This document shows positions 11,161 through 29,170 of a stretch of DNA of 55,786 bases, in pieces. Numbering within the stretch: the first letter of the stretch is position 1; each line of letters begins with the position of its first letter. Origin of the DNA: Bacteroidota bacterium (lineage in GTDB: Bacteria; Bacteroidota; Rhodothermia; Rhodothermales; UBA10348). The stretch covers positions 1-55,786 of the forward strand of contig JAQBZH010000016.1 of assembly GCA_027622005.1 (NCBI GenBank), read 5' to 3'. The translations under genes were made by a program, and so were the position numbers. The notes beneath the pieces were generated by a model, which worked only from the letters and a program-made list of their open reading frames with translations, searched no databases and had not been told where the DNA came from.

Positions 11161-11922
11161 TCACAGAAGCAGTTCAGCTAATATGTAATCCGCTATCAGG
11201 ATACTAACGCAACTGACCACGACGGCTTGAGTAGTCGCTATGCCTACGCCTTGAGCCCCGCCTTTGGTATTGAATCCTTTCCAACATGCAACGGAAGTAA
11301 TCAGAAAACCGAATGCCATGGACTTAGTCATTCCGTAGAAGGGGTCGAACGGTAAAAAATAGGTCCTGGCTCCCAGAACATAGGATTCCATGGACAAATA
11401 CCCAAGCCATTCTCCGGCAAAACCACCGGCCAATATGGATACCAATGCAGACGCAACGTAGATGGAAGGAAACATCACGGTGCCAGCAATTACGCGAGGT
11501 AAAACTAAATAAGCCACAGAGTTGAGTCCCATGGCCTCGATAGCGTCAATCTGTTCCGTCACTTTCATGGTGCCAAGTTCGGCCGCAATGCTCGCGCCCA
11601 CCCGGGACGCTAGGACCAAACCCGGAATAAGCGCTGCCATTTCCAACATCAAAGTCGGAACGACCACAGCCCCAACAGCTTCCTCCGAGAGAATGGTGTT
11701 TTTTAATTGATAGGCCGTTTGCAACGTCGTCACAACGCCAGCAAAACAGGAAGCCAGAAAAACGACCGGCAATGATTCTACTCCAATTTGAACCATTTGA
11801 AACCACACAGCCTTTTTGTGAGCCAATGCCTCTCGGGTCGTCGAGAAGGCACGAATCATAAAGATGGCATACTGCCCCAATTTTTGGATGATATCGGTCA
11901 GTTTTCCCGTTAGAAGGTTCAT
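11161..11922 (-). CDS. mlaE: MlaE-type ABC lipid transporter permease
   Basis: The 253-residue integral membrane protein matches the MlaE/YrbE permease family. It has the conserved central region LEMAALIPGLVLASRVGASIAAELGTMKVTEQIDAIEAMG, five to six hydrophobic segments and the late stretch MTKSMAFGFLITSVACWKGF. In Gram-negative bacteria MlaE works with the MlaF ATPase and MlaD to move phospholipids between inner and outer membrane. No MlaF or MlaD gene is nearby. Its ATG overlaps the TGA of the hydrolase-DedA-ATP-grasp gene by four bases (ATGA), so the two are translationally coupled. This links the permease to the lipid operon and suggests that the lipid product is transported between membranes. 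Confidence 0.92.
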   Translation of the reverse strand: MNLLTGKLTDIIQKLGQYAIFMIRAFSTTREALAHKKAVWFQMVQIGVESLPVVFLASCFAGVVTTLQTAYQLKNTILSEEAVGAVVVPTLMLEMAALIPGLVLASRVGASIAAELGTMKVTEQIDAIEAMGLNSVAYLVLPRVIAGTVMFPSIYVASALVSILAGGFAGEWLGYLSMESYVLGARTYFLPFDPFYGMTKSMAFGFLITSVACWKGFNTKGGAQGVGIATTQAVVVSCVSILIADYILAELLL

Positions 11923-14537
11923 AATCGGGCCGATTTTGAGGTCTCTGGTTTGTCTACGGGACGCACTTTAAACTGGACGATCAATTGGATAAGTCGTTTA
12001 AATGTAATTGGAACAGTGCCAGAAATCATGTTGACCTTTCCGATTTCGAAGGCTTGTTTCCAATTTCCAGCTAAGGTCCGATAGGCCTCGCGAAGGGTGG
12101 TTGAAGGATCATATATGTGCGTGGCTTCCGATGTCACACCATTCAGTTCGAGAATCTTAAAGTTTTTACCACCAATAAGGTCGTCTGAACACGAAACGCG
12201 GACGTCGAATCGCCCAAAAAAGAAGCCCTTAGCTGAACCTCCGATACGGTTAAACACTTCTTCTAGGGCTTCCGAATTCAAGTGGGCACCGTTTAGGAAA
12301 AGGGCCCCCCTGGCATGAGTACCTACATCCACTAGCTGGAAAATCACTCCAGATTCCAAAACCGAATCTAGAGAGGCCGCGTGGCGCTTTGCAAACACCT
12401 TGTACATGCACCTTGCCCGCGGGTCGTCTAGTATGAGTCTTTCCAGTGTGTGCTTTCCATTCCCGACGACCCGGATCAGTATTTTTTGAGTGATTGAGGT
12501 GATGTACCCCATTGCTTTACTGGGATGACGCACAAAAAACACCCCAAACTCTTCGCCTGATACGTATTCCTGAACAATTGTAGGTCTCTGTTCGACAGCA
12601 AAAAAGGCTTCCACCTCGGACTCAGATTCGATGATGTAGACTCCGTGCCCACGATCTCCTACATCTGGCTTGAAGACAATCGGGAAAGACAAGCCTTCTT
12701 CTTTCATGAATCGAAAGGTTGAAGCGACGCCTGTTCGCGAATCTGCTATCAATCGGTATTTGGCTACAAAATCAGAACTAGCCGCCAGCAAATTTAGAAT
12801 TTCAGATTTCGACTCGCCCACAAATCCACCGTCCGGAATTCCAGGATTAGCGGCTGTGAAAACGGTCAGCGAACGGTGTTTGAAAGCCAACCCAAAGATG
12901 TACAGTAACAAGGGTGGATAAAACACGAACGGTGGCCAAAATTCCCAGTGAACCATCCGTTGCCATCTTGCCAAGAGTTTTTTCCTTCCAAGGTGGCTGG
13001 TTAGGGGTACTCCAACGTGAAAAATACCGTAGACAATTAGGACTCCCCACAAAAAAACCCAGAATGCATAGGCTTCATAAACCGCCCAAGTAGCTAATAT
13101 CTGATTTCCCATTAGAGTCGAAACCCCAACAATAATCGGAGTCCAGATAACCGTTCCAATCAGGAAAAGTCCCGTAAACTTCCAAAAAGGGGCTTTCAAA
13201 ACGCCTGCAGCCACATAGGTCGGAAAACGGGATCCCGGAATGACTCGGCTAACCAATACAACTTTTGTGCCTTCTTTCTTGAACCATGCCTGGCCGCGTT
13301 CTAATTGCTCCTTTCGGATGAACCAACAAAACGGAGGTAAAGTGACAATTTTGGCCCCGAAAAGCCTCCCTGCTAAATAGAGACCCATATCACCGGCAAA
13401 GATGCCAGCAAAAGTGGCTAATAGGGCAACCTCGAAATCTAGAGACCCTCTTGCCACCATCAGGCCAGCACCAATTGCAGCGAGATCTTCGCTTAAAAAT
13501 GTCGTCGTGACGATAAGAAGTATCAAAATGACCAGGCCAAAACCTTCGACAGGAGGCAATTCATGAAAGTCGAACGGCTCCTCCGCCCTTGCAACCCGGT
13601 CTTCAGTGGCTTCAAACCTGGTTTGAACTTGATGGTTTTCTACTCGGTTCACCCACTCTAGGATGACGTTTGCGGCTTCGTCAGGGTGTTCAAAGGGAAT
13701 ACCGTGCCCCCAGTCTGGAAAGGAGACCAGCTCACTCTGGGGGATAATTCGGTGGTGCTCCAAGGCCACCGAATAGGGTACCAGACTGTCTTTCTCCCCA
13801 TGCAGGAGAAGGGCCGGCCCTGAATAGGATGATAAATATGCTCGCAAAGGGCGTTGATCGGAGTCGAAAAAGTTACGCGCATAGGGCACCCCCAATAGGG
13901 TCTTATCCAAAAGTCCGAAATGAGGGATGAACTCGGACAACGACCATAAGACGCTATACTGTAGGCCATGAACTAAGTGATTGAGGTAGTAATCACCCAT
14001 CAACTCCAACTCTTGCACACCCAGCGAGGACAATAACACGACAGAAGACAACCTCGAAGGGTCGCGCTGCATTAACTCGGCGACCACACCTCCCGACATG
14101 CTATACCCAATTAGGTGAGCCTGTGAAATGCCTAAAGAGTCCAGCCAAGCCGAAACATAGGAAGCATGGGAGGAAAAGGAGTAATCCACCAAGTGCCGAG
14201 AAGAACCCTCAAACCCAGGCAAATCAGGTGTTAGCACCCGATAATGGCCGTCTTTGGCCAAGCTCAGATGCATCGGGAGCATAAAAGAGGAAGCCGCCGG
14301 ACTTCCGTGCAAAAGCACTATAACGGGACTGTCTCCTCCAGAATCCATATAGGAGATATTTAGACTGCCGGACAACTGCTCACGAAAATCGAACTGGGAA
14401 ACGGTCAACCATTTTTGATCGGCCCCGGGTGAAAAATCGCTTTGAAAAAAGCGCACGCCGTGAGAGAGGATCAAAAGTAGGAGGTACGCGACCAAAAGAC
14501 GATAAAACGTTCTATTTTTTGGCCGAATAAAATTCAT
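11919..14537 (-). CDS. Alpha/beta-hydrolase - DedA - ATP-grasp fusion protein
   Basis: This 872-residue protein joins three functions. After an N-terminal membrane anchor (about 11-30) comes an alpha/beta-hydrolase (about 55-295) with oxyanion segment LLHGSPAAS, nucleophile Ser146 in GYSMSGG, Asp250 in HGEKDSLVP and His278 in WGHGIPF. Next is a DedA/VTT membrane domain (about 330-515) with DLAAIGAGLM, GDMGLYLAGRLFG and SRVIPGSRFPTYVAAG. The last third (about 600-830) is an ATP-grasp ligase with FPIVFKPDVGDRGHGVYI, IVQEYVSGEEFGVFF and FKILELNGVTSEATHIYDP. DedA proteins flip lipids, and ATP-grasp enzymes join carboxylates to amines. It is in an operon with OlsB-like and PlsC-like acyltransferases and MlaE, so I infer a membrane-bound enzyme that modifies and translocates an aminolipid. 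No assembly error is visible; the frame is open throughout. Confidence 0.88.
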   Translation of the reverse strand: MNFIRPKNRTFYRLLVAYLLLLILSHGVRFFQSDFSPGADQKWLTVSQFDFREQLSGSLNISYMDSGGDSPVIVLLHGSPAASSFMLPMHLSLAKDGHYRVLTPDLPGFEGSSRHLVDYSFSSHASYVSAWLDSLGISQAHLIGYSMSGGVVAELMQRDPSRLSSVVLLSSLGVQELELMGDYYLNHLVHGLQYSVLWSLSEFIPHFGLLDKTLLGVPYARNFFDSDQRPLRAYLSSYSGPALLLHGEKDSLVPYSVALEHHRIIPQSELVSFPDWGHGIPFEHPDEAANVILEWVNRVENHQVQTRFEATEDRVARAEEPFDFHELPPVEGFGLVILILLIVTTTFLSEDLAAIGAGLMVARGSLDFEVALLATFAGIFAGDMGLYLAGRLFGAKIVTLPPFCWFIRKEQLERGQAWFKKEGTKVVLVSRVIPGSRFPTYVAAGVLKAPFWKFTGLFLIGTVIWTPIIVGVSTLMGNQILATWAVYEAYAFWVFLWGVLIVYGIFHVGVPLTSHLGRKKLLARWQRMVHWEFWPPFVFYPPLLLYIFGLAFKHRSLTVFTAANPGIPDGGFVGESKSEILNLLAASSDFVAKYRLIADSRTGVASTFRFMKEEGLSFPIVFKPDVGDRGHGVYIIESESEVEAFFAVEQRPTIVQEYVSGEEFGVFFVRHPSKAMGYITSITQKILIRVVGNGKHTLERLILDDPRARCMYKVFAKRHAASLDSVLESGVIFQLVDVGTHARGALFLNGAHLNSEALEEVFNRIGGSAKGFFFGRFDVRVSCSDDLIGGKNFKILELNGVTSEATHIYDPSTTLREAYRTLAGNWKQAFEIGKVNMISGTVPITFKRLIQLIVQFKVRPVDKPETSKSARL

Positions 14538-14612: not shown

Positions 14613-15137
14613 TTAGAGCGCTACTTGGACTTTTCTATGTAATAAAGTCGACGGGGCAACACCAAAGTCGGCTTCCGGATCCAATCCTTGCAATCTTAGG
14701 ATCATGGCGATAAGTGCAAAATGATGGACGGTATGTGCTTGAAGGTACTGAAGTTCTCTGCATAGCGAGGATTGACTGACAACCACGTTTTCGCCTAGAT
14801 CAGGTGACAACGTCAAGCGAACATCCAAGGGTTTATCCAGGATCGAAAGGCGCTCCAAATCTTGTTGAAGGTGTCGGATGGTGCTTATTGCGAAACTTGG
14901 GTCCGTCGATATACGAAGGTCCCGAAGGCGAGCATCATAATCCGCCGTTCCAGCAGCAATTCCCGAAAGTAACATGTGAAAATGCTCCACTAGATGCCGA
15001 ACGTGTTCGCCGATACTTGAGGTATAAATCGGAGATTGCCGTTTGGTGTACGCATCTTCGCCAATGGTCTCAATCATTTCGATGCACTGACCCAGCAAAT
15101 GGGAATTAATCGAGATCAACTTAGAAATGTTTGTCAT
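14613..15137 (-). CDS. DinB-like helical-bundle protein
   Basis: A 174-residue protein with the four-helix layout of the DinB/YfiT-like superfamily. The metal-ligand histidines appear as SSIGEHVRHLVEHFHML near residue 45 and LQAHTVHHFALIAMILRL near residue 140, the usual places. Family members include metal-dependent thiol transferases and many proteins of unknown activity. Its ATG overlaps the stop of the PlsC-like gene by four bases, and the fusion gene starts 75 bases downstream, so it belongs to the lipid operon. DinB proteins are not known components of aminolipid synthesis, which makes this membership notable. Its specific role cannot be read from the sequence. Confidence 0.82.
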   Translation of the reverse strand: MTNISKLISINSHLLGQCIEMIETIGEDAYTKRQSPIYTSSIGEHVRHLVEHFHMLLSGIAAGTADYDARLRDLRISTDPSFAISTIRHLQQDLERLSILDKPLDVRLTLSPDLGENVVVSQSSLCRELQYLQAHTVHHFALIAMILRLQGLDPEADFGVAPSTLLHRKVQVAL

Positions 15138-15898
15138 GTGCTAAGCTGGTGTGTTTTTGTGAATATCATGGATACTTTTTTCTTCAACTCGTTGGCTAGA
15201 TTTTTCCGATCAGAATCAACGATTGGGGTAGGTCCAAACCTCAAGAAAGCTGAGGAGGATTTAATTTTGAGAACACTCCAGAAATGGTGAACAAACGAAA
15301 CATCATTCCACCAACACAGCGCTGAAGATGCATCCGCAAAAGGAGTTGAGTAGCTAACAGCAGCGAAATGGACGGGGTAAGCAGACATCGCAAAACCGTG
15401 CAATAAAGAGGACTTAAATGGTCCAACGGCCTGCCCATCGGTGGTCGTTCCCTCCGGGAAAAAAACAATTCCTTCTCCTTCCTGAATGGCTTTTTCCAAC
15501 TTTTCGTTGACTCGAAGAACATCTTGGGAACGATTCCGATCTATAAAAATGGTGCCTACCAGCTTACTCAGAATCCCGATAAATGGCCAATTGGCTACTT
15601 CAGATTTGGAGACCAAAACACAGCCCGTTTGGGCTTGAAAAAGGACGGCATCCAAATAGGAAAGATGGTTTGAAATCAAACAAAAAGGCGGCTTTGGTGG
15701 GTAACCAGAGGTCGTCATTTTAATGTTCAAGATTCTGAGGGTAATTCGTGCCCAATTTTTAGTCATGAATTGCCGCCATCGAATTCTCAATGGGCGTGAA
15801 AAAGCAATCGGAAGATTACCAAGGAGGTACAAAATGACCGATACCATCAAAAACAGGAGAAACGCAATCAGCCGAACTGACGCTCTAAGTGCGGTCAT
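15134..15898 (-). CDS. PlsC/OlsA-like 1-acyl-glycerol-phosphate-type acyltransferase
   Basis: A 254-residue membrane-associated acyltransferase. It has an N-terminal hydrophobic segment (about 8-30), the catalytic HxxxxD motif in SNHLSYLDAVLF, and block III FFPEGTTTDGQAVGPFKSSL. The family moves acyl chains from acyl-ACP or acyl-CoA to a lyso-lipid hydroxyl. It overlaps by four bases both the N-acyltransferase gene before it and the DinB-like gene after it. In ornithine-lipid synthesis OlsB first N-acylates ornithine and OlsA, a PlsC relative, then O-acylates the lyso-lipid. The tandem here matches an olsB-olsA pair, so I favour OlsA-like activity over general phosphatidic acid synthesis. Confidence 0.9.
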   Translation of the reverse strand: MTALRASVRLIAFLLFLMVSVILYLLGNLPIAFSRPLRIRWRQFMTKNWARITLRILNIKMTTSGYPPKPPFCLISNHLSYLDAVLFQAQTGCVLVSKSEVANWPFIGILSKLVGTIFIDRNRSQDVLRVNEKLEKAIQEGEGIVFFPEGTTTDGQAVGPFKSSLLHGFAMSAYPVHFAAVSYSTPFADASSALCWWNDVSFVHHFWSVLKIKSSSAFLRFGPTPIVDSDRKNLANELKKKVSMIFTKTHQLST

Positions 15899-16668
15899 GA
15901 TTTTAGGTGATAAAAAACCGAGGACAGCGCGTCAAAGGAGGTCAAGTCGAAAAGCGTTAAGAAATCTATGGTTTTGAATTCGCGATCAATGGCCGGAGGG
16001 CTACAAATCTTGGCCCCAAGGGATAAATAGGTTCGCATGAGTCGAGGAGGAAAATAGGTTCCACTTGTTTCGGTGTCAGTAGGTTGACAACAATGCGAGT
16101 CCCGTGGAGGAATGAAAATACTGGAATGAACATGGCCTTTGTTTTCTAAGAAAGCTTGAACGGCCCACGCTTCTGACACGTTTTGCCCCGTTATAGAGCA
16201 ACATCCGAATAAATACCTTTTTTGATTGACCTTACAGTAATGACCGATTCCTTTCCAGAGCAAATAGAGAACTTGTAGGCTTCTATGGTCCTGTCGAATG
16301 CATGCCCGGCCAATTTCGACGCTGTTTTTAAGAAAATCGATTGGAGCCTGGTTTAGATCAAATACGGTGGCCGAATAAAAACCCAGATTCGATGTGGCCG
16401 TCTCGTAGGACTGCATGCGATAGGTTCCTACGATTTCGCCGGTCTTTTTAAAGCGAACAAAAAGATGTTGACACTGCGGGTCAAACTCGTCGGCGTCCAA
16501 TCCTGTCTCACGAGACTCATCCAGTCCTTCGTTCAATTCTTCGTTGAAAACCGTATAACGCAGGCGCTGAACCTCCGTCAGATCACTTTTGGATCGTGCA
16601 AAACACAGGTCGTAAGAGCGATTTTGGGACTGCAAGACGTCCTTAATCTGAATACTTTTGGCCTGCAT
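15895..16668 (-). CDS. OlsB-like GNAT N-acyltransferase
   Basis: A 257-residue protein of the OlsB/hemolysin-like branch of GNAT enzymes. Landmarks are VQRLRYTVFNEEL, DADEFDPQCQHLFV, GTYRMQS, FYSATVFDL, VEIGRACIRQDHRSLQVLYLLW and LFGCCSITGQ, and near the C terminus ICSPPAIDREFKTIDFLTL. OlsB-type enzymes attach a 3-hydroxyacyl chain from acyl-ACP to the alpha-amino group of ornithine, lysine, glutamine or glycine. It is the first gene of a five-gene minus-strand operon and overlaps the PlsC-like gene by four bases. Its amino-acid substrate cannot be told from the sequence. The 141-base gap to the divergent cupin gene should hold the operon promoter. Confidence 0.9.
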   Translation of the reverse strand: MQAKSIQIKDVLQSQNRSYDLCFARSKSDLTEVQRLRYTVFNEELNEGLDESRETGLDADEFDPQCQHLFVRFKKTGEIVGTYRMQSYETATSNLGFYSATVFDLNQAPIDFLKNSVEIGRACIRQDHRSLQVLYLLWKGIGHYCKVNQKRYLFGCCSITGQNVSEAWAVQAFLENKGHVHSSIFIPPRDSHCCQPTDTETSGTYFPPRLMRTYLSLGAKICSPPAIDREFKTIDFLTLFDLTSFDALSSVFYHLKS

Positions 16669-28381: not shown

Positions 28382-29170
28382 ATGCTTTCGTATAAAACGT
28401 TTAAATCAGAGAAAGGAGAAGATTGGGTCGTGTTCGTCCACGGGGCGGGCGGGAGCTCTGCGGTTTGGTTTAAACAGATTCGTGCTTTTCAAAAAGAGTT
28501 TAATGTTTTGTTGGTAGACCTTCGAGGTCATGGACGATCCAATCAGTTTCACGGAGATGGGTCTAAATACAGCATCAACGCGATTAGCAGTGACATTTTA
28601 GATGTTTTGGATCAAATCAACATAAAATCAGCCCATTTTGTAGGCGTTTCTCTGGGAACGATTCTCATTCGATCCATTATTGATCTGGCGCCCGATCGGG
28701 TACAGTCTGTGATTTATGCTGGTGCGGTGGTCGGTTTTTCCGCCATGGCGCGCATTTTAATCGTAGCGGGTCAGGCGTTGAAGTATATGGTGCCTTTTAA
28801 AACGCTTTACGCAACGTTTGCCTGGATCATCATGCCTGGAAAAAAGGCAGAGGAAGCCCGAAAAGTGTTTAAACGAGAGGCCAAGCGGGTTACACCGGAA
28901 GAATTTAGACGGTGGCTCGGGTTGATTCCTGAGGTGAACAGACGATTGCGAAAATGGATGTCTGAAGTGTCTAGACCCCGATCGTTGTATTTGATGGGGG
29001 GAAAAGACTATATGTTTCTGCCTCCTGCTCGCGCCATAGTCGGGAAAACACCTAATTCTTTTCTTCAGGTGATTTCAGGGGTGGGGCATGTCTGCAATAT
29101 TGAACGTCCCGAACGGTTTAACGAAATTGCAATTTCTTTTTTGCTTCATTCTCCGCAGCATTCCCGTTAA
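28382..29170 (+). CDS. Alpha/beta-hydrolase
   Basis: A 262-residue cytosolic alpha/beta-hydrolase. It shows the oxyanion motif FVHGAGGSSAVW, DLRGHGRSN, the nucleophile elbow VGVSLGT, an acid residue near LMGGKDYMFLP and the catalytic histidine in SGVGHVCNIERPE. A lid rich in basic residues lies between about 120 and 190. The family includes esterases, lipases and C-C hydrolases, and no substrate can be assigned. It is a lone gene, divergent from galK and convergent with the polyprenyl synthase gene. Confidence 0.9.
   Translation: MLSYKTFKSEKGEDWVVFVHGAGGSSAVWFKQIRAFQKEFNVLLVDLRGHGRSNQFHGDGSKYSINAISSDILDVLDQINIKSAHFVGVSLGTILIRSIIDLAPDRVQSVIYAGAVVGFSAMARILIVAGQALKYMVPFKTLYATFAWIIMPGKKAEEARKVFKREAKRVTPEEFRRWLGLIPEVNRRLRKWMSEVSRPRSLYLMGGKDYMFLPPARAIVGKTPNSFLQVISGVGHVCNIERPERFNEIAISFLLHSPQHSR

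Follow-up and report, generated by a model that had tools for sequence, protein, structure and literature searches.

A hydrolase-VTT-ATP-grasp fusion protein in an aminolipid-type operon of Bacteroidota, and the probably membrane-anchored ATP-grasp family to which it belongs

What might a bacterium do with a single polypeptide that joins an alpha/beta-hydrolase, a DedA-type (VTT) membrane domain and an ATP-grasp domain? Such a tri-domain protein, here called TRI, is encoded on a 55,786-nucleotide stretch of DNA from a Bacteroidota bacterium of the class Rhodothermia, order Rhodothermales (NCBI GenBank assembly GCA_027622005.1, contig JAQBZH010000016.1, positions 1 to 55,786; hereafter the window). 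An earlier note on this DNA, made from the sequence alone, had recognized the three domains and suggested a channelled lipid-editing reaction across the inner membrane. Our computations support the architecture of TRI, its fold, its catalytic residues, its operon, its linkage across phyla and its predicted topology. We give about an even chance to the reading that TRI is a dedicated modification-and-transport unit of an aminolipid pathway, in which the ligase would extend the lipid, the VTT domain would translocate it and the hydrolase would trim it. More broadly, we tentatively propose that in Bacteroidota and Proteobacteria a new family of membrane-anchored ATP-grasp ligases may make aminolipids with an amide extension (dipeptide- or taurine-like), and that in one class it may have been fused with a flippase and a periplasmic editing hydrolase, giving one polypeptide that would make, flip and trim the lipid. 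The operon of TRI and its portable, membrane-associated ATP-grasp unit are of more interest than a channelled triple reaction.

Domain architecture of TRI

TRI, of 872 residues, is read from a single open frame that begins with ATG and occupies exactly 11919-14537 on the minus strand, while the plus strand over the same interval holds 44 stops. The earlier note had these coordinates right and left the strand unstated; the motifs that it quoted are all present in TRI, and S146, D250 and H278 lie at the positions it gave. Because the full-length fusion recurs in 26 sequences that align across one bacterial class, we could rule out that TRI is a frame-fusion, a chance read-through or a product of sequencing or assembly error.

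The assignment of an alpha/beta-hydrolase, a DedA/VTT domain and an ATP-grasp domain was borne out by Pfam, NCBIfam and the predicted fold. Specifically, Abhydrolase_1 matched residues 71-171 above its Pfam cut-off (5e-28). Of the solved hydrolases built in this way, the closest is PlaF from Pseudomonas aeruginosa (PDB 6i8w), a phospholipase A that is anchored in the inner membrane, has its catalytic domain in the periplasm and uses the triad S137/D258/H286 (PMC9132575). PlaF resembles TRI in its single N-terminal transmembrane helix, its alpha/beta-hydrolase and its similarly placed triad (S146/D250/H278 in TRI), and the alignment starts at residue 13, which includes the anchor; PlaF stops after the hydrolase, whereas TRI continues with the VTT and ATP-grasp domains. 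The middle part matched VTT_dom (PF09335) over residues 358-472 (4e-15; 56.7 bits against a gathering score of 33.9), which places it in the DedA/VTT superfamily, and it carries the invariant residues E350-D351, R431, P434 and R437. DedA proteins are lipid transporters, known for undecaprenyl phosphate (C55-P) and phosphatidylethanolamine (PE) (PMC12893004). In its PF09335 match and these residues the VTT domain of TRI resembles the DedA/VTT transporters UptA (for undecaprenyl phosphate) and PetA, but it differs from them in being fused at both ends. A sequence search of the PDB with the VTT part gave no match, and the Foldseek list for the full-length model was occupied by hydrolases; the identity of this domain rests on sequence. 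In the full-length model (predicted local distance difference test, pLDDT, 88.6), a helix at residues 10-31 leads into the hydrolase, after which come the helices of the VTT domain (333-513), another, short helix (541-553) and the ATP-grasp domain.

Unlike known ATP-grasp ligases, the third domain scored below all Pfam and NCBIfam family cut-offs, including ATP-grasp_3 on residues 616-675 (18.7 bits against 23.2) and the cyanophycin synthetase model TIGR02068 on residues 614-702 (6e-8; 31.2 bits against an equivalog cut-off of 850), and a sequence search of the PDB gave weak ATP-grasp matches. Structure prediction upheld the ATP-grasp call, since the best fold matches of an AlphaFold2 model of residues 555-872 (pLDDT 91.2; predicted template modelling score, pTM, 0.88) are ATP-grasp ligases. 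Foldseek ranked cyanophycin synthetases best (E 1.6e-12), and VIA aligned 254 residues to cyanophycin synthetase 7wae_C with a Z of 16.8 and a root-mean-square deviation of 4.0; GshF, LysX/ArgX, Ddl and RimK followed in the fold ranking. Five residues of the ATP- and Mg-binding set (K623, E663, D778, E797 and N799) are identical in 55/55 ATP-grasp sequences from Bacteroidota and Proteobacteria. The model, both fold comparisons and these invariant catalytic residues rule out a different fold for this domain, as well as chance similarity. TRI has the fold and the complete catalytic set in common with cyanophycin synthetase, LysX/ArgX, RimK and Ddl, but stands apart from them with ~18% identity, an anchor helix of its own and an NPxIxxGGxxGESK-type signature. 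Stand-alone members of the family also have both the hydrophobic N-terminal helix and the signature, and since they have this helix, the ATP-grasp enzyme is probably bound to the membrane even when unfused. There was no phage match that would indicate a phage origin of the ATP-grasp domain, and PADLOC gave no match for TRI as a defence system.

In the predicted topology, the VTT domain separates a periplasmic hydrolase from a cytoplasmic ATP-grasp domain. In the full-length forms, the mean numbers of lysine plus arginine residues exceed those of aspartate plus glutamate at the N-terminus (2.2 vs. 0.6), in loop 393-410 (3.3 vs. 1.2) and in loop 514-540 (6.2 vs. 1.0), with the reverse in loop 479-491 (0.4 vs. 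1.9). By the positive-inside rule, these charges would make the N-terminus, loop 393-410 and the ATP-grasp domain cytoplasmic and the hydrolase periplasmic.

Operon context and forms within the class

The operon setting of TRI, which the earlier note had missed, appears by homology to be related to ornithine-lipid synthesis. The genes on the minus strand are ordered olsB-olsA-dinB-TRI, followed by an MlaE-like gene, and 4-base overlaps join olsB to olsA, olsA to dinB and TRI to mlaE. Pfam domains PF13444 and PF01553 are present in the neighbouring genes, and the lipid setting that had been suggested for TRI is borne out by these OlsB- and OlsA-like genes in the same operon. Among 42 homologous loci, 39 have an OlsA-like gene no more than two genes upstream of TRI, and the outer flanks of the olsA-TRI block vary between families and genera.

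A class-wide search of 195 genomes recovered relatives in 80 of them. The full-length forms come from the window's own family (f1), from two other families of its order (f9 and f11) and from many genera of family f17. Three architectures were found: the full-length protein (~810-905 residues), a hydrolase-VTT form (520-533 residues; genera g51, g53 and g56) and the VTT domain alone (258-278 residues; genus g47). The hydrolase-VTT and VTT-only forms also follow olsA, and it is the VTT part that every form retains beside this gene. Because relatives that have no ATP-grasp domain, or neither enzyme, still adjoin olsA, the three parts of TRI need not work as one channel. Within f1, PF13444 (OlsB) and TRI were both present in 13 genomes and both missing from six, with two mismatches that can be explained by contig ends. 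In one of these (G190, a 78%-complete genome), TRI lies near a contig end; the other (G091), which has OlsB without TRI, was dismissed as a counter-example since its contig breaks off within dinB.

A phylum-wide search of 394 genomes found the ATP-grasp domain outside the class only in frames of 340-400 residues or in three longer ones (566-613 residues), two of which are fusions with TANGO2. Since the domain occurs elsewhere only in these shorter frames, the three-domain fusion appears, within the genomes sampled, to be confined to this class.

The ATP-grasp family outside the class

The ATP-grasp family forms a portable unit of its own. The pattern common to its members outside the class is an ATP-grasp gene together with a membrane transporter and often with an aminolipid N-acyltransferase. 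In Salinivibrio, Vibrio and Photobacterium the gene order is VTT-ATPgrasp-DinB-TANGO2, which in the latter two genera is followed by YHS, DoxX and OlsF-like genes. Azospirillum has a VTT-ATPgrasp fusion, and Paracoccus carries the ATP-grasp domain, an alpha/beta-hydrolase and the VTT domain as three neighbouring genes, i.e., the three domains of TRI unfused. The locus of Variovorax comprises haem-oxygenase-like, methyltransferase, ATP-grasp, OlsB-like and LplT genes (LplT above its NCBIfam cut-off), while Bacteroidota outside the class have DinB, TANGO2, ATP-grasp and a LysE-type translocator.

Other features of these loci recur. The genes of Variovorax sp. PDNC026, from the haem-oxygenase-like gene to LplT, form one run on a plasmid (L122:6017-11005), and haem-oxygenase-like and methyltransferase genes also flank ATP-grasp on Komagataeibacter plasmids (L121, L126). 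A DinB-like protein with conserved histidines accompanies ATP-grasp across two phyla. TANGO2 adjoins DinB and ATP-grasp in many Bacteroidota and in Vibrionaceae, and at two loci (L106:6884-8674 and L114:6917-8686) TANGO2 (PF05742) and an ATP-grasp domain of this family make up a single chain; the genome of the window has its TANGO2 on another contig. The human counterpart of TANGO2 is a disease gene and has been described as an acyl-CoA-binding protein (PMC11867700). The TANGO2 linkage is a second lead, offering a bacterial context for a human disease-gene family.

A proposed role in aminolipid modification and transport

From these results we infer a lipid substrate, an amide product, a direction of transport and a hydrolytic step. 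OlsB and OlsA would make a fatty-acylated amino acid, similar to an ornithine lipid, in the cytoplasmic leaflet. On the cytoplasmic side, the ATP-grasp domain would convert a carboxylate to an acyl phosphate and join an amine to it, as is suggested by its fold family. The amide formed in this way on the head group, at the expense of ATP, would yield an aminolipid that is amide-extended or resembles a dipeptide. The VTT domain may then move the lipid to the periplasmic leaflet, in keeping with DedA biology (PMC12893004), and the PlaF-like hydrolase at the periplasmic face may remove an ester-linked acyl chain or the added group, by analogy with PlaF. Where the triad has decayed, the hydrolase would be a binding or regulatory part only.

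The nearest functional analogue of this scheme is MprF/LpiA with AcvB/VirJ, which combines head-group modification in the inner leaflet, translocation and periplasmic hydrolysis. In MprF/LpiA, a lysyl-phosphatidylglycerol synthase-flippase, a lipid is modified and flipped by one chain (PMC11980842), and in Agrobacterium the periplasmic hydrolase AcvB, encoded in the same operon as LpiA, reverses the modification (PMC13135905). MprF/LpiA, however, takes its amino acids from tRNA, whereas TRI has an ATP-grasp ligase, a VTT/DedA transporter and a hydrolase fused. The Pfam families of MprF and VirJ were not among the TRI matches, and TRI thus falls outside both MprF/LpiA and AcvB/VirJ.

The literature searched yielded neither a dedicated flippase for ornithine-type aminolipids nor an enzyme for amide-extended aminolipids, an example of which, as cited in PMC4484230, is the ornithine-taurine lipid of Gluconobacter cerinus. 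TRI is a concrete candidate for both. In a literature search that did not extend to most subscription papers or to any preprints, we found no work that links ATP-grasp to DedA or to the synthesis of ornithine lipids. The conserved gene set to follow comprises ATP-grasp, VTT/LysE/LplT, OlsB/OlsF, DinB and TANGO2.

Evidence against the proposed role and alternative interpretations

Several observations weigh against a modification-and-transport role. The pTM of the full-length model (0.60) makes the relative placement of the domains uncertain. The OlsB-like protein scored 118 bits against an NCBIfam equivalog cut-off of 320, and the OlsA-like protein 143 against 300; these are nonetheless the best-scoring families, but with scores so far below the cut-offs the amino acid of the product is not fixed. 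The operon of TRI has OlsB- and OlsA-like enzymes in common with OlsBA/OlsF ornithine-lipid synthesis, but OlsBA and OlsF loci without any part of TRI occur elsewhere, even in the same genomes. TRI is therefore dispensable for a plain aminolipid, and it does not belong to ornithine-lipid synthesis in its plain form but would be an extension of it.

The hydrolase adds a further point of this kind. Loss of the catalytic residues in most homologues, which the earlier note had named as evidence against its own reading, is what we found in f17: a single genome of that family (G187; L061) has the triad intact, and the serine is replaced in all 13 other full-length sequences. It is not what we found in the order of the window, where every one of the 13 full-length sequences (the window included) keeps the Ser-Asp-His triad and the HG motif. 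The serine is also replaced in all ten hydrolase-VTT forms without ATP-grasp, and the VTT tree requires at least two switches of the active state of the hydrolase. Since the triad is lost across nearly all of the sister family, hydrolysis is not the conserved core. The full-length forms without the serine still keep the lid motifs GVQELELxGxxxLN (G173-N186), PHFG, DQRxxR, EHxR and PQS, which suggests that the decayed domain kept a function in binding or regulation after catalysis was lost. It is conceivable, although we lean against it, that the hydrolase mainly serves the VTT domain as a binding or gating module, and that catalysis in the lineage of the window is a retained side activity. The replaced serines and the conserved lid would fit such a module, but the intact triad and HG motif throughout the order of the window and in G187 suggest real selection there.

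The remaining points concern the partners of the ATP-grasp domain. Of 40 genomes of Bacteroidota from outside the class that carry the ATP-grasp domain, 16 lacked a match to PF13444 at 1e-10; when these 16 were rechecked at 1e-3, 14 still had none and two gave weak matches. Because of these 14 genomes, the substrate of the ATP-grasp domain cannot always be an OlsB-type lipid. In addition, the membrane partner in Bacteroidota is LysE-like, a family best known for amino-acid export. Both findings would agree with an anchored ATP-grasp enzyme that joins small soluble molecules (e.g., into a dipeptide) and a membrane domain that exports the product, the OlsBA link being secondary; LysE-type translocators follow ATP-grasp in many Bacteroidota, and the closest folds are amino-acid and peptide ligases. 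We nevertheless regard a soluble substrate as unlikely, considering the linkage to OlsBA or OlsF/OlsB in at least three separate settings, the fusion to VTT, a domain with lipids as known cargoes, the adjacent LplT in Variovorax and the conserved hydrophobic anchor helix.

It is very improbable that the VTT domain is a housekeeping flippase joined to its partners by accidental co-expression: such domains do transport C55-P or PE, and UptA (NF052604) is the best DedA model in NCBIfam for TRI, but the match reaches 48.1 bits against an equivalog cut-off of 250, the genome already has a second, separate DedA of 240 residues and the VTT part never parts from olsA.

Features of the locus

Table 1 Features of TRI and of its operon in the window.
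Feature	Positions	Strand	Basis or remark
MlaE-type lipid permease; shares 4 bases with the end of TRI	11161..11922	minus	Follows TRI only in the window's own family
TRI, tri-domain protein (hydrolase-VTT-ATP-grasp), 872 residues	11919..14537	minus	Pfam, NCBIfam, model
ATP-grasp domain, residues ~558-860	11958..12866	minus	AlphaFold2 model, fold matches, invariant residues
Hydrophobic membrane-anchor helix, residues 533-555	12873..12941	minus	Own to the ATP-grasp family, including stand-alone members
VTT/DedA domain, residues ~330-515	12993..13550	minus	Pfam, conserved residues, model
Alpha/beta-hydrolase, residues ~40-310, triad S146/D250/H278, predicted periplasmic	13608..14420	minus	Pfam, alignment, Foldseek, charges
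N-terminal transmembrane helix, residues 10-31, basic N-terminus, predicted N-in	14445..14510	minus	Model, charges; resembles the PlaF anchor
DinB-like protein, 174 residues, conserved histidines	14613..15137	minus	Pfam; recurrent partner of the ATP-grasp family
OlsA-like lyso-aminolipid O-acyltransferase	15134..15898	minus	Pfam, NCBIfam, locus comparison
OlsB-like amino-acid N-acyltransferase (PF13444)	15895..16668	minus	Pfam, NCBIfam, locus comparison

The MlaE-type permease stands without adjacent MlaF or MlaD genes and is one of three MlaE genes in the genome. Several relatives (L025, L027, L028, L031, L032 and L033) have a gene of 572-742 residues just downstream of mlaE, which is not found there in the window. 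A second alpha/beta-hydrolase is encoded elsewhere in the window, at 28382-29170; in many f17 genomes its homologue is found next to olsB/olsA-TRI, in divergent orientation.

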